The position numbers were made by a program, and so were the translations under genes. A stretch of 64,000 bases of DNA. It comes from Brachycybe producta. Its lineage: Eukaryota > Arthropoda > Diplopoda > Playtdesmida > Andrognathidae. Below are positions 3,078 through 53,937 of this stretch, in pieces; the stretch's first letter is position 1; every line of letters begins with the position of its first letter. Below the pieces are notes generated by a model. It was not told the DNA's origin. It was given only the letters and a program-made list of their open reading frames with translations, and did not search any database. The stretch lies in NCBI GenBank assembly GCA_036925085.1, contig JAUPFP010000017.1, positions 1,236,001 through 1,300,000 on the forward strand, read 5' to 3'.

Positions 3078-3782
3078 TTAAGAGGATAAATCACAAAATT
3101 ACTTCGAAAAATCTCTCTGCAAAGAGCGCTAGCATCGTTTTTCTATTGACCCCATAAACTCAATGTTAAAGAAAAAATGTTAATTTTTTAAAATACACAG
3201 TCATGGCGGCAATATGGTTTATTTTTTATATTTAAAGTTGTCCAATATTAAGTTTTCAAATTGCAATGTGCGCCTTAAATATATGCTGATCGAGTGATAG
3301 AATGACAAAAAATTGGTAAGTGCGGTTCTATTTTTAAAAAATATTTCAACTGTTAAACTCCATTGAGTATGCGCTCGTAAGCAAAAAAAACATTCTTTAA
3401 AATGTTGGTAAAAATAAGTAAAAATAATTTTAAAACCCACAATTAAACAACAGTGAAGCCAACACATTGGCGCACGTACAGATTTTGTTCTGTTTTCTTT
3501 TAAATTATTTTTACGTATTTTTACGAGAATTTTAATAAATGTTTTTTTTTTGCTTATGAGCGCGTACTCAATGGAGTTTAACATAAAGAGTTCGAAATTC
3601 GCGATTTTGAAATATTTTTTAAAAAATATAACCGCACTTAGCAATGTTTTGTCATTTTACACTCGATCAGAGCATATATTTAAGGTGCACACTGCACTTT
3701 GAAAACTTAATATTGGACAACTTTAAATATGAAATTAATTTTTCTTTAACATTAGGTCTATGGGCTCAATAGGAAAAACGAT

Positions 3783-4381
3783 GGGGCGACTGAATAAGCG
3801 CCAAATTGAACAAACGCCAAACTGAATAAGCGCCAAATAGAACAAACGCCAAACTGAATAACTGCCAAATTTTTGGCTTTTATTCAGTTTGGCGTTTGTT
3901 ACATTTAGCGTTTATTCAGTTTGGCGGTTATTCAGGTTTTTTGTAAATTCTGATGGTCCAAATATTGTGAGCTTTTATAGATGTCAGACTGTGCAGATTT
4001 ACAAACAGAACATGCTAACCTAACCTAACCAATCAAAACCTAACCTAACCTAACCAAACCTAACCTAACCAATCCTAACCAATCCTAACCAATCCTAACC
4101 TAACCTAACTTAACCTAACCTAACCTAACCAAACCTAACCAAACCTAACCTAACCTAACCTAACAATGTGTTTATCACATTTTGGTGGTTATTCAGTTTG
4201 GTGCTTGTTCAGTTTGGCGTTTGTTCCATTTGGCGCTTATTCAGTTTGGCGTTTGTTCCATTTGGCTTTTATTCAGTTTGGCGTTTGTTCCATTTGGCGT
4301 TTATTCAGTTTGGCGTTAGTTCAGATTGGCGTTTGTTCAATTTGGCGCTTGTTCAATTTGGCGCTTATTCAATTTGGCGCT
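3783..4381. mobile_element. Foldback element with tandem 16-mer arms and CCTAA core, copy 1
   Basis: The left arm (3783-3925) is a tandem array of a 16-bp unit reading GCCAAACTGAATAAGC or GCCAAATGGAACAAAC. The right arm (about 4183-4381) is the same array inverted, GGCGTTTGTTCCATTT alternating with GGCGTTTATTCAGTTT, so two 16-mers form a 32-bp dimer. Between them are a unique ~90-bp segment (about 3930-4012) and a CCTAA array (4013-4165). It sits inside TTAA foldback copy A, splitting the conserved AACGATG...GCGCTCTTTGCGG sequence. The arms make open frames rich in FGVCSIWRLF repeats. These are repeat artefacts, not proteins. Copies with the same arms lie at 30880 and 53518. Confidence 0.75.
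4013..4166. repeat. Telomere-like (CCTAA)n array
   Basis: About 30 units of the pentamer TAACC/CCTAA (complement TTAGG), interspersed with variants AATCC and AAACC. TTAGG is the ancestral arthropod telomere repeat. This array is interstitial and lies in the core of a foldback element, so it is not a chromosome end. Confidence 0.85.
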
Positions 4382-4426: not shown

Positions 4427-5006
4427 AGAGGCTTGTAACCTGTAAGTCGCCATTTTTCTAATCCAAAATATTTAAAAGAAAAAGTGGATTTCGATGCTTA
4501 TAGTAGATTAGAGGAAGTGACGTTAAAGGGATGGATGCAATCACAAGACCGAATTACGTTTACGAATGCTTTTCGGCTAATCCTGCTCTTGTGATTGCAT
4601 ATGATTAGGTTTATGTTCAATACAAAGATTTAAATTTGTGTAGATAAAAAAAAAATATATTTCTCAGGTGCTTCAGTATAGACTTAATTCCAAAACTTTT
4701 TTTCTTCTTAGTAATAGATTAATTTAGGAGAAAACAGCTTCCAAAAGTACTTTAAAAGTATTTCAGTCCAAGTATTTGTCAACTTTTTATAGGCTCCCAA
4801 GAAGATTACTTTAATGATAACGGCAAACTCATTTTCAGTTGATTTCATTGCAACCATTTCATATAATCAAGGCCTTGTTCAGACCATTGGGTTAATGTAA
4901 GTTGAGGTAAGGTCGCTCTTTACTGTGCACGTGCAGAATAAAGTCACGAAAGTATCATTACTCTTTTTGCACATGCGCAGTATTAACGGTCTTATTTTTA
5001 CCTACT
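4427..5006. other. Unassigned AT-rich stretch
   Basis: Between two copies of the TTAA foldback. No coding potential, RNA gene or further repeat was recognised. Confidence 0.5.
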
Positions 5007-5750
5007 TTAAGAGGCTACATCACGAAATTACTTTAAAAAATCTCCGCAAAGAGCGTTAGCATTGTTTTTCTATGGAGCCCATAGACCTGATGTTAAAGAA
5101 AAAAATGTTAATTTTTAAAATACACAGTCGCGGCGGCAATATGTTTATTTTTCATATTTAAAGTTGTCCAATATTGATGGTTGAAAGTGCAATATGCACC
5201 TTAAATATATGCTGATCGAGTGATAGAATGACAAAAAATTGGTAATTGCGGTTTTATTTTTAAAAACGAATTCAAAATCGCGAATTTCGAACTCTTTACG
5301 TTAAACTCCATTGAGTATATGCGCGCGTAAGAAGAAAAAAACATCCACTAAAATGCTCGTAAAAATACCTAAAATAATTTTAAAAAACTACAATTAAACC
5401 ACAGTGAAGCCAACACATTGGCGCACGTGCTGAATTTTTTTTTTTCTGTTTTTTTTTTTAATTATTTTTACATATTTTTACGAGCATTTTAATGGATGTT
5501 TTTTCTTATTTGGACGTACTCAATGAAGTTGAACATAAGAGTTAGTTATAACTGCACATTCCAATTTTTTGTCATTCTATATCACTCGATCAGCATATAT
5601 TGAAGGTGTACATTGTACTTTGAACCATCAACACTGGACAACTTTAAATATGAAAAATAAACATATTGCCGCCGCGGCTGTGTATTTTAAAAATTAACAT
5701 TTTTTCTTTGCGGAAATTTTTGGAAGTAATTTAGTGATGTAGCCTATTAA
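5007..5750. mobile_element. TTAA-flanked foldback MITE, ~740-bp family, copy B
   Basis: Complete copy: TTAA-GAGGCTACATCACGAAATTAC at the left and its mirror ending GATGTAGCCTA-TTAA at the right, 744 bp in all. Each arm carries the same ordered landmarks: CGCAAAGAGCG, a poly-A AATGTTAATTTTTAAAATACACAG block, GGCGGCAATATG, and a central GTGAAGCCAACACATTGGCG. There is no coding frame. Because it is uninterrupted it is the best reference for copies A, C and D. Confidence 0.85.
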
Positions 5751-17127: not shown

Positions 17128-17890
17128 GTACAGAACGTTGCGTGGGGACCCGCTTTATGCCTAAATTCATCTAAGCCTATGAATCCATGCCACATCAATC
17201 TCAATCTGAGCTACTTTGCATGAATACTAACACAGTGAGTTGAATTGAATTGATGCAAATGTATTTTGCCCCAAAGGCGTCAATGAAAGGTTTTTATGTG
17301 GGGGGAAGGGGGAGGGGGAGGGAAGGATAATAAATATTCATTACTTTGCTATTTATTTTTTATCTTTTATTTTTTTTAATTGTTAAATGATACCTTCAGC
17401 ATTAATCAGTAACCAATTGACAAGAAGAGTAATTTTATAGAAACATAAAAAACCCGACCCCGTTGAAAGTGAAGAAGTGGTTGTTGTGAACCTGTGAGTT
17501 TGTTGAATGAACACACAAAGGCATATCATTACAGGTGCTACTTAACTGTTGAAAAGTTTTTTTTGTTGCTAGTCAATTAGGGGGAAAATGTAGACGATTG
17601 TGTCATTTCCTGCGGATATGAATTTATAAGTTTCAACTCAAACAACATGAATGGAGAGAAAGAAATACGAATTAAAAAAAATATATATATTCCATTTGAA
17701 ACGTTATAAAATAATAAAATAGTTTTTTGGATGTGCTTGAGTAACTTTGAAATTTGTACCTTTTTTTAATTATCTCCATAATATTAGAGAAATCATGTCT
17801 CATTCAAGTTTTCTGATTTGAAAATTATAATAGGAATAACATTTGGATAAATTATAATCATAGATTCGGCATGACTGTATTCATGGGATG
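17128..17890. other. AT-rich non-coding stretch
   Basis: No gene seen. A GGGGGAAGGGGGAGGGG purine run is at about 17300-17325. Confidence 0.5.
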
Positions 17891-18438
17891 GGGGTCACTA
17901 CAGCTACCAAGGCTCACAAGAGCTACTAGGGTGAGAGAAGCTACTTGGGTCACTACAGCTACCAAAAAAACAACACTTTCTCCCTAACAGAACCTTACCT
18001 AATAAAACGTAACCTAACCGAACCGAACCTAATGAAACGTAACCTAACCGAACCGAACCTAATGAAACGTAACCTAACCTAACCGAACCTTACTTAACCG
18101 AACGTTACCTAAACGAACCTTACCTAACCGAACCTTACCTAACCGAACCTTACCTAACCGAACGTTGACTAACCGAACGTTACCTAACTGAACCTTATCT
18201 AATAAAACCTAACCGAACGTTACCTAACTGAACCTTACCTAATAAAACCTAACCGAACATTACAGAACCTAATGAAACCTAACCCAACCGAATCTAACCT
18301 AAACTAAACGTATTGATAAAAAAGGACTTATCTTTTGGTAGCTGTAATGACCCTTGGTAGCTGTAGTGACCCTTTTGATTAAAAAAAAGGTCTATATATT
18401 CTTTTGGTAGCTGTAGCGAGCCTGGTAGCTGCAGTCAG
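17891..18438. mobile_element. Foldback element with GGTCACTACAGCTACC arms and telomere-like core
   Basis: The left arm holds GGTCACTACAGCTACCAA twice (about 17893 and 17950) plus a degenerate unit. The right arm holds the mirror TTGGTAGCTGTA.TGACCC at about 18335 and 18352, with further partial units to 18438. Between them, 17990-18303 is a degenerate array of 5-mers (CCTAA, CCGAA, CCTTA) and related AACGT units. The organisation repeats that of 3783-4381, short-repeat arms around a CCTAA-type core, though the arm sequences are unrelated. Confidence 0.65.
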
Positions 18439-30504: not shown

Positions 30505-30562
30505 ATATTCTCTATAGTAGTCCTTGAATATAGCCCAGTAGGCCTATACAACTCTTTTGTTA

Positions 30563-31264
30563 TTAAGCAGCCCACAGACTTGCAACTTGCTTGCCAACCA
30601 TGTTGTCAACGTTTCATGTTGCAAACAGTGTTGAAGATCTGTGGGATGATGGTTGAAGTTGCCATTTCAGGTTGCACCAACGGTTGCAGTGAAATCAGAA
30701 TGTTTAGACTTTTTGTGGGAGGAGCCTAATGTTGACAACACTGTTGCGCCGTCTGTAGTGGGGTTGACAACTTGGTTGGAAACATTAGTACACCACAAGG
30801 AGTTCCAAAGTGAAAAGTAGTGCATTAAGACGTTGTTATAAATAAAAAGAAAATGGCTACCATCCCAAATAATAAAGCCAAACGCCAAACTGAATAAGCG
30901 CCAAATGGAACAAACGCCAAACTGAATAACCTCCAAATATTTAGCTTTTATTCACTTTGGCGTTTATTCTATTTGGCGCTTATTCAGTTTGGCGTTTGTT
31001 CAGTTTGGCGTTAGTTCCAATTGGCGTGTATTCAGTTTGGCGTTTGTTCCATTTGGCTTTTATTCAGTTTGGCGTTTGTTCCATTTGGCGTTTATTCAGT
31101 TTGGCGTTAGTTCAGATTGGCGTTTGTTCAATTTGGCGCTCATTCAATTTGGCGCTTGATCAGCGCCACCGTTTCTGATGTTGCTGTAAAGGTTGCATAT
31201 AGTTTGTGGCAAACAAGTTGGCAACATGGTTGGCAACCAAGTTGCAGGTCTGTGGGCTGCTTTA
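30563..31264. mobile_element. TTAA-type MITE with GCAGCCCACAGACTTGCAAC termini
   Basis: TTAAGCAGCCCACAGACTTG mirrors AGGTCTGTGGGCTGCTTTA. Subterminal GTTGCCAACC/GGTTGGCAAC words are repeated in both arms. A tandem-16-mer foldback is inserted at 30880-31168. The minus-strand frame over 30667-30936 reads through the junction and is not a gene. Confidence 0.75.
30880..31168. mobile_element. Foldback element with tandem 16-mer arms, copy 2 (core deleted)
   Basis: AAACGCCAAACTGAATAAGC units at 30884-30940, then GGCGTTTATTC, GGCGTTTGTTCC and related units in the opposite sense to GGCGCTTGATCAGCGCCACC at about 31149-31168. Unlike copies 1 and 3 it has no CCTAA core; the arms meet almost directly near 30945. 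The GATCAGCGCCACC terminus is the mirror of the start of copy 3. Confidence 0.7.
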
Positions 31265-53517: not shown

Positions 53518-53937
53518 GCGCTGATCAAGCGCCAAATTGAACACACGCCAATCTGAACTAACGCCAAATGGAACAAACGCCAAACTCAATAAAAGCCAAA
53601 TGGAACAAACGCCTACCTGAATAAGCGCCAAATGGAACAAACGCCAAACTGAACAAGCAACAAACTGAATAACCGCTAAAATGTGATAAACACATTGTTA
53701 GGTTAGGTTAGGATTGGTTAGGTTAGGTTAGGTTAGGATTGGTTAGGTTAGGTTAGGTTAGCATGTTCTGTTTGTAAATCTGCACAGTCTGACGTCTATA
53801 AAAGCTCACAATATTTGGACCATCAGAATTTACAAAAAACCTGAATAACGGCCAAACTGAATAAGCGCCAAATGGAACAAACGCCAAACTGAGTAACCGC
53901 CAAAGTTTTGGCTTTTATTCAGTTTGGCGTTTTGGCG
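53518..53937. mobile_element. Foldback element with tandem 16-mer arms and telomere-like core, copy 3
   Basis: GGCGCTGATCAAGCGCCAAA start, then GCCAAATGGAACAAAC and similar units to about 53690. GGTTA array at 53698-53762, a unique segment GCATGTTCTGTTTGTAAATC to CATCAGAATTTACAAAAAAC shared with copy 1 in inverse orientation, then further 16-mers to 53937. Confidence 0.78.
53698..53762. repeat. Telomere-like (TTAGG)n array
   Basis: TTAGG units with two GATTGG variants, inside foldback copy 3. Confidence 0.85.

Follow-up and report, generated by a model that had tools for sequence, protein, structure and literature searches.

A foldback family with a telomere-type CCTAA array and evidence for its transposition in Brachycybe producta

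Three copies of a foldback element in the window

The window, a stretch of 64,000 nucleotides on contig 17 of the host assembly (295.3 Mb in 442 contigs), contains three copies of a repeat designated here family A. Copy 1 occupies positions 3783..4381 of the forward strand. Its start at 3783 is exactly GGGGCGACTGAATAAG (0 mismatches), so that the 5' terminus is intact, and the 3' terminus lacks its final ~14 bp. The copy begins with a left arm of forward 16-bp units with the terminal sequence GGGGCGA (3783..3871), followed by right-type (inverted) 16-bp units that run from the fold point to the spacer (3872..3935), a spacer of 79 bp (3936..4014), a degenerate CCTAA array containing CCAAT and CCAAA variants in register (4015..4164), a small hairpin, AATGTGTTTATCACATT, which closes the array (4165..4181), and an outer right arm composed again of inverted 16-bp units (4182..4381). 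All family A arms are built in this way from stacked 16-bp units, which run forward in the left arm and inverted in the right one. In the family the left-arm units are followed by the fold point CCAAATTTTTGGC, then by right-type units, the spacer, the array, the small hairpin and more right-type units. Because of this order the array is embedded in the right arm, away from the fold. The original prediction had the arms enclosing the CCTAA repeats; the array does lie within the unit, but inside its right arm and not at the foldback centre. Tandem Repeats Finder detected periods of 16 and 32 bp in the arms of copy 1 and a period of 5 bp at 4015-4164. The 32-bp period results from two 16-mers in alternation, as had been proposed. 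When positions 3783-3932 were folded as single-stranded DNA a z value of -14.4 was obtained.

Copy 2 (53514 to ~53938) lies on the reverse strand, with an intact 3' terminus and a lost 5' terminus. It shows the parts of copy 1 in reverse: an arm, AATGTGATAAACACATT, the array (53697-53761), the spacer (53762-53840, 79 bp) and an arm. Copy 3 (30879-31170, forward strand) consists of arms only and has likewise kept its 3' and lost its 5' terminus. The first reading of the sequence had noted the common order of parts in the copies at 3783 and 53518 (53514 in our delimitation) and the arms-only structure of the third. Both observations were confirmed, the order being reversed in copy 2, and the spacer, estimated at ~90 bp, was corrected to 79 bp in the window copies. 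Since each of the three copies keeps one intact terminus only, a target duplication is invisible inside the window.

Two further inverted repeats were seen next to these copies. Just before copy 1, at ~3358-3580, an inverted pair around GAGTATGCGCTCGTAAGC / GCTTATGAGCGCGTACTC was recognised by eye and is perhaps another MITE, and at ~30560-31260 an inverted repeat of GTTGGCAAC-type motifs encloses copy 3.

Termini, target duplications and internal structure of family A

The ends of family A are GGGGCGACTGAATAAGCGCC and GGCGCTTGATCAGCGCCACC, and the termini are unequal, with GGGGCGA... on one side and ...GCGCCACC on the other. Exact matches in the assembly number 527 for the 5' end (with AAA), 546 for the 3' end and 237 for the spacer-array junction. 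Each of the reversed control patterns gave 0 matches, which rules out chance. Target duplications were analysed in 72 distinct copies with both ends (at most 4 mismatches per end), drawn from 80 loci, of which 60 had been picked by similarity and 20 from the contigs C1-C5, mostly by length. In the similarity searches scoring was confined to the 40 best of 495 and the 40 best of 1196 first-look candidates, so that the sample leans to young, query-like copies. An exact 8-bp duplication flanked 51 of the 72 copies, and 7 or 8 bases matched in 60. After 200 shuffles of the partners the mean number of exact 8-bp matches was 0 (maximum 0) and that of 7-or-8 matches 0.18 (maximum 2). Other lengths were nearly absent (one exact duplication at 9 bp and two at 7 bp), and a convincing duplication was missing in 12 of the 72 copies.

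Family A shows the properties of a MITE, being short and high in copy number, with terminal repeats and target duplications, and non-coding as judged from its repetitive sequence; 61 of the 64 exact end pairs found within 8 kb on C1-C5 measure 128-927 bp. It also shows those of a foldback element, namely long inverted ends of variable length made of short tandem repeats, ends that fold back, and an 8-bp duplication. The mobile foldback unit that had been postulated is borne out by these duplications. We consider it highly probable (about 0.88) that family A belongs to the non-autonomous DNA transposons of the cut-and-paste class, as a foldback-type MITE which carries the array as cargo and spreads internal telomere-type repeats by transposition.

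The modular structure of the arms is most obvious in copies reduced to them. No spacer was found in 15 of the 72 two-ended copies. Eleven of these do not exceed 304 bp, and each has a length exactly divisible by 16 bp. The remaining four, of 476, 531, 574 and 728 bp, do not follow this rule, and a changed spacer and an array are present in at least one, L114. An exact junction lies inside 24 of the 64 end pairs on C1-C5, and among the junction-less pairs of up to 352 bp 12 of 15 are multiples of 16, the exceptions being 183, 209 and 328 bp. At 128 bp the shortest of the 15 spacer-less copies is made up entirely of eight 16-bp units, and its duplication matches at 7 of 8 positions; three copies of 144 bp have exact 8-bp duplications. 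Arms-only copies of as little as eight units mean that very little sequence suffices for the machinery that moves family A. Two arms-only copies, folded as single-stranded DNA, gave z values of -14.8 and -12.2 against 200 shuffles, and 48 of the 50 fold points found lie at one common 16-bp phase. Three copies are unusual in other respects: in L103 and L115 the region of the fold point is reversed relative to other copies, as would result from an inversion of the centre through arm-to-arm recombination, and L102 has a nested insertion, starting near CCCAGGTAGCACACATATGG, within an arm.

The spacer, compared over 69 ungapped bases in 38 distinct copies (from L031-L060, for which all of copy 2 with its spacer had served as the query, and L101-L120, retrieved by their ends), differs from its commonest form by at most 3 mismatches in 36 copies and by 8 and 10 in the other two. 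The array could be delimited in 54 of the 72 two-ended copies, which places it within the mobile unit, as the original prediction had it. It measures 17-402 bp (median 72), and in 46 of the 54 copies its length has the same remainder (2) modulo 5. CCTAA accounts for 682 of 1034 five-base units, a minimum value, since some few copies had been cut in the wrong register; CCAAT (116) and CCAAA (106) are frequent variants. The left junction of the array is AACAGAACATG in 41 of 55 copies and has G in 9 of 55, and the right junction is TAACAA in 37 of 47 and TAACCA in 9 of 47. Few junction types, a near-constant spacer and a variable length fit a single entry of the array, at least two subfamilies and a drift in length. 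The addition of repeats by telomerase copy by copy was rejected on account of the few junction types and the degenerate arrays.

That the array is dispensable for insertion follows from the copies that lack it. Of the eight arms-only copies read (L106-L113, 128-240 bp), exact duplications flank five, two match at 7 of 8 positions and one has none, and L115, with approximately one CCTAA unit left, nevertheless has an exact 8-bp duplication. Nothing points to a role of the array as a landing or replication signal, a possibility raised initially, and copies without an array were inserted too.

These observations suggest how the family may have arisen. The spacer, the CCTAA array and the closing hairpin would have entered the right arm of an ancestor once and would then have been copied along. 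A transposase encoded elsewhere or now lost might bind the GG ends, make cuts staggered by 8 bp and so move the element. Slippage or unequal exchange would alter the numbers of units in arms and array. Arrays differ in length by multiples of 5 bp, their flanks being near-constant, and spacer-less copies by multiples of 16 bp.

The host telomere and other carriers of CCTAA repeats

Contig 3 of the assembly begins with CCTAA from base 1. The repeat is pure over 200 bases and still almost pure at 3.2-3.8 kb (L156). On contig 1 CCTAA follows 5,000 N. CCTAA is therefore the telomere unit of the host, a point that the first reading had proposed to check. Among the 19 largest contigs, with 38 ends between them, these two ends alone show telomere repeats; at its left end contig 9 is N, and it was resampled there at 4,950-5,150. 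The exact 5' ends of family A nearest to these two telomeric ends lie 3.36 Mb (contig 1) and 1.72 Mb (contig 3) away; the mean spacing of such ends is ~0.56 Mb (295.3 Mb / 527). An enrichment in subtelomeres, which the first reading had proposed to look for, was not seen, as far as exact 5' ends and these two contig ends are concerned.

A pattern matching the boundary of a CCTAA run gave 514 matches in the assembly, some arrays being counted twice and interruptions of telomeres included, and a single match when reversed. Among 100 listed boundaries on C1-C5, 50 have an end or junction of family A no more than 900 bp away, so that the suggested seeding of telomeric repeats at internal sites holds for this family. 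Twenty stretches covering 21 of the 50 other boundaries were read; they were hand-picked to favour isolated places. Nine belong to a family C, five to a family D, two each to families B and E, one is the telomere of contig 3 and one (L150) is unassigned. Three further boundaries are family C by position. A scan of 251,519 bp (L001-L060 and the MULE loci L121-L134, mostly picked through family A) revealed 77 clusters of CC[TAG]AACC[TAG]AACC, of which 65 have motifs of family A or B no more than 400 bp away and 12 lie inside a MULE on L133/L134. This pentamer class makes up 9 of the 11 pentamer runs of at least 15 bp in the window and 132 of 138 in L001-L060, loci picked through family A.

Family B is a second foldback and is present in the window at 17888-18437 (forward strand), with arms of tandem GGGTCACTACAGCTACCAA and a degenerate CCTAA/CCGAA/CCTTA array at ~17983-18312. 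There are 763 first-look candidates in the assembly, of which 40 were scored and eight copies read (L135-L142). Seven copies with two ends showed five exact 8-bp duplications, one match at 7 of 8 and one at 5 of 8. By eye the arms of families A and B have no evident common sequence.

Family C (L145, L147-L149, L151-L153, L158 and L159) is a Mutator-type MITE of ~230 bp with ends ACTAGCGTTTGCCC... and, by eye, duplications of 8-9 bp. It carries three CCTAA units beside one end (ends ACTAGCG), and 95 exact end-array junctions are present in the assembly. Its subterminal stretch looks, again by eye, like the ends of the MULE at L133/L134, which are ACTAGCG... and are flanked by an exact 9-bp duplication on one copy and an 8/9 match on the other. 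The two copies of this MULE (L133 3314-7486 and L134, on contigs C13 and C28) are 99.4% identical over 4.2 kb and have a 796-aa open frame, terminal repeats of 70 bp and a 21-bp tandem array with repeated GGTTAGGTTAGG.

The remaining two families were encountered less often. Family D (L144, L146, L155, L157, L161) is a repeat of ~530 bp that is tandemly arranged near 1.475 Mb of contig 1; one of its edges resembles CCTAACCTAACCCAACACTAACCC, and by eye L144 has a tRNA-like GGTTCAAACC stretch. Family E (L160, L162) is a third foldback in which tandem TGTCAATTGACACTTTTT-type arms surround a few CCTAA units. Twenty of the 50 listed boundaries outside family A are clustered at C1:1403559-2736950, at a distance of 1.40-2.74 Mb from that contig's telomeric end. 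The stretches read there were two of family D and one of family C, and some family other than A may be linked to the region of contig 1 near 1.4-2.7 Mb.

Most of the internal telomere-like DNA at the sites examined is cargo of transposons, and the spread of telomere-type repeats by these elements is well supported. Internal telomere repeats are usually taken as scars of chromosome fusion or of breaks healed by telomerase. Where they travel as transposon cargo, counts of them would therefore say little about fusions in such genomes.

Transposase, origin of the array and known systems

A longer autonomous relative, for which a search had been suggested, was not found among exact ends up to 8 kb apart on C1-C5, nor when unpaired ends on C1 and C2 were followed further by eye. 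Three long end pairs had other explanations. The pair of 2,229 bp represents three separate insertions in a row, that of 1,542 bp has another insertion nested in its arm, and that of 1,465 bp is a copy of 1,219 bp with expanded arm and array, followed by a family A arm up to a second 3' end. The MULE on C13/C28 was rejected as a source because its ends (ACTAGCG...) are different.

Two superfamilies have to be considered. Family A has the terminal GG characteristic of Merlin elements (GGGGCGA and GGTGGCGC) as well as a duplication within the 8-9 bp of that group, and it may be Merlin-like in its working. The Merlin transposase domain DDE_Tnp_IS1595 (PF12762), however, had 0 matches in the assembly, in which searches for Mutator and COX1 gave matches, and for this reason we do not file family A under Merlin. 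The MULE domain PF10551 had 21 matches. No family A ends or units were detected within ~1.5 kb of the 12 MULE loci fetched, the best resemblance having 3 mismatches of 16. Membership of Mutator is possible, since the authors of PMC3169594 and PMC4079207, in the portions of text available, place the elements Tm1 and Tetris there. As a by-product, cox2 was seen to follow directly after cox1 on the mitochondrial contig, with no tRNA between them, an arrangement which, taken with TTAGG telomeres, would point to an arthropod that is neither insect nor crustacean; nuclear copies of cox1 were seen at C1:12697416 (full domain with one internal TAA) and C17:4027703-4029047.

How did a telomere repeat come to lie in one arm of a transposon? 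That the array at 4015-4164 is itself a fossil chromosome end or a fusion point would explain the identity of its unit with the telomere unit, but this is extremely improbable. The array is internal and degenerate, and true ends differ from it; hundreds of copies have the identical spacer-array junction, duplications bracket the whole unit in other copies, and exact copies lie far from the two telomeric contig ends found. A possible explanation, which we put forward tentatively, is that an ancestral element suffered a break, as might follow a failed excision or gap repair, and that this was healed by telomerase or by captured telomeric DNA, leaving CCTAA in one arm to be multiplied by transposition, and that the same happened in other families. 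The exact match to the host unit, the asymmetric placement in one arm, the presence of the same unit in the unrelated families B, C (the MULE-type MITE) and E and the predominance of the telomere class among long pentamer runs (9/11 and 132/138, the latter in loci picked through family A) all agree with such an origin. On the other hand no copy was seen mid-event, and the present arrays are degenerate (at least 682 of 1034 units are CCTAA) whereas the start of contig 3 is pure over 200 bases, so there is no sign of ongoing input from telomerase.

Ordinary growth of microsatellites within MITEs might equally have produced the arrays, the match to the telomere unit then being a coincidence or a consequence of a general abundance of this pentamer. 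Lengths that change by whole units, the short runs of just a few units in families C and E and the abundance of AACCT microsatellites in Penaeus monodon (PMC3124438, in the part available) would be in keeping with this; the near absence of the reversed pentamer pattern (1 match versus 514) and the sharing of one unit by several families of unrelated sequence argue against it. It seems rather unlikely that the array is a working part, retained by unrelated transposons because a host protein binding the telomere motif aids their transposition, expression or survival. The motif does recur in several families, and the stretch from spacer to hairpin is at least 17 bp long in all 54 copies having both, but the arms-only copies and L115 were inserted with target duplications all the same. 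The strongest hint of a real link to telomeres is the recurrence in unrelated families together with the near-absent reversed pentamer, families D and E being thinly sampled; for families C and E, with their short runs, coincidence may be the explanation. We offer as a conjecture, rather less probable than its opposite, that several unrelated families (two or three foldbacks differing in their tandem arms, a MITE of Mutator type and a Mutator element whose 21-bp array contains GGTTAGGTTAGG) independently took up the host telomere repeat, through telomerase healing or because these families are favoured by a telomere-binding host factor, and that nearly all internal telomere-type DNA is such cargo. 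If several families truly acquired the repeat separately, they would constitute a natural experiment on whether telomerase or telomere proteins meet transposons.

No report of foldback elements carrying CCTAA was found in the literature searched, which is weak evidence as most subscription journals lie outside its coverage. The pentamer of family A is known from shrimp and virus work: according to the accessible parts of the two papers, AACCT telomere-type microsatellites are particularly abundant in Penaeus monodon (PMC3124438) and a nimavirus is integrated in telomeric repeats (PMC7016691), but these are arrays or insertions into arrays and not transposons that carry an array. Merlin/IS1595 elements, as described in the available portion of PMC8101967, share with family A the ends starting with GG, duplications of 8-9 bp, imperfect terminal repeats and, in some families, tandem repeats; their transposase domain is the one not detected in the host assembly. 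Tetris of Drosophila virilis is, in the text of PMC4079207 at hand, likewise a foldback with inverted ends of tandem repeats, duplications of 8-10 bp and no autonomous copy found; its repeats are of ~220 bp, and a telomere repeat is absent from that part of the description. Tm1, a Mutator/Foldback element of root-knot nematodes, has composite inverted ends with variable numbers of an internal motif of ~14 bp (PMC3169594, consulted in extract). Family A differs from it, as far as that extract goes, in its 16-bp unit, in a duplication of 8 bp rather than mostly 9, in having no transposase-coding version found and in the CCTAA array inside one arm, but the two have in common short unequal terminal motifs outside the inverted repeat, duplications within the 8-10 bp range and MITE-like versions.
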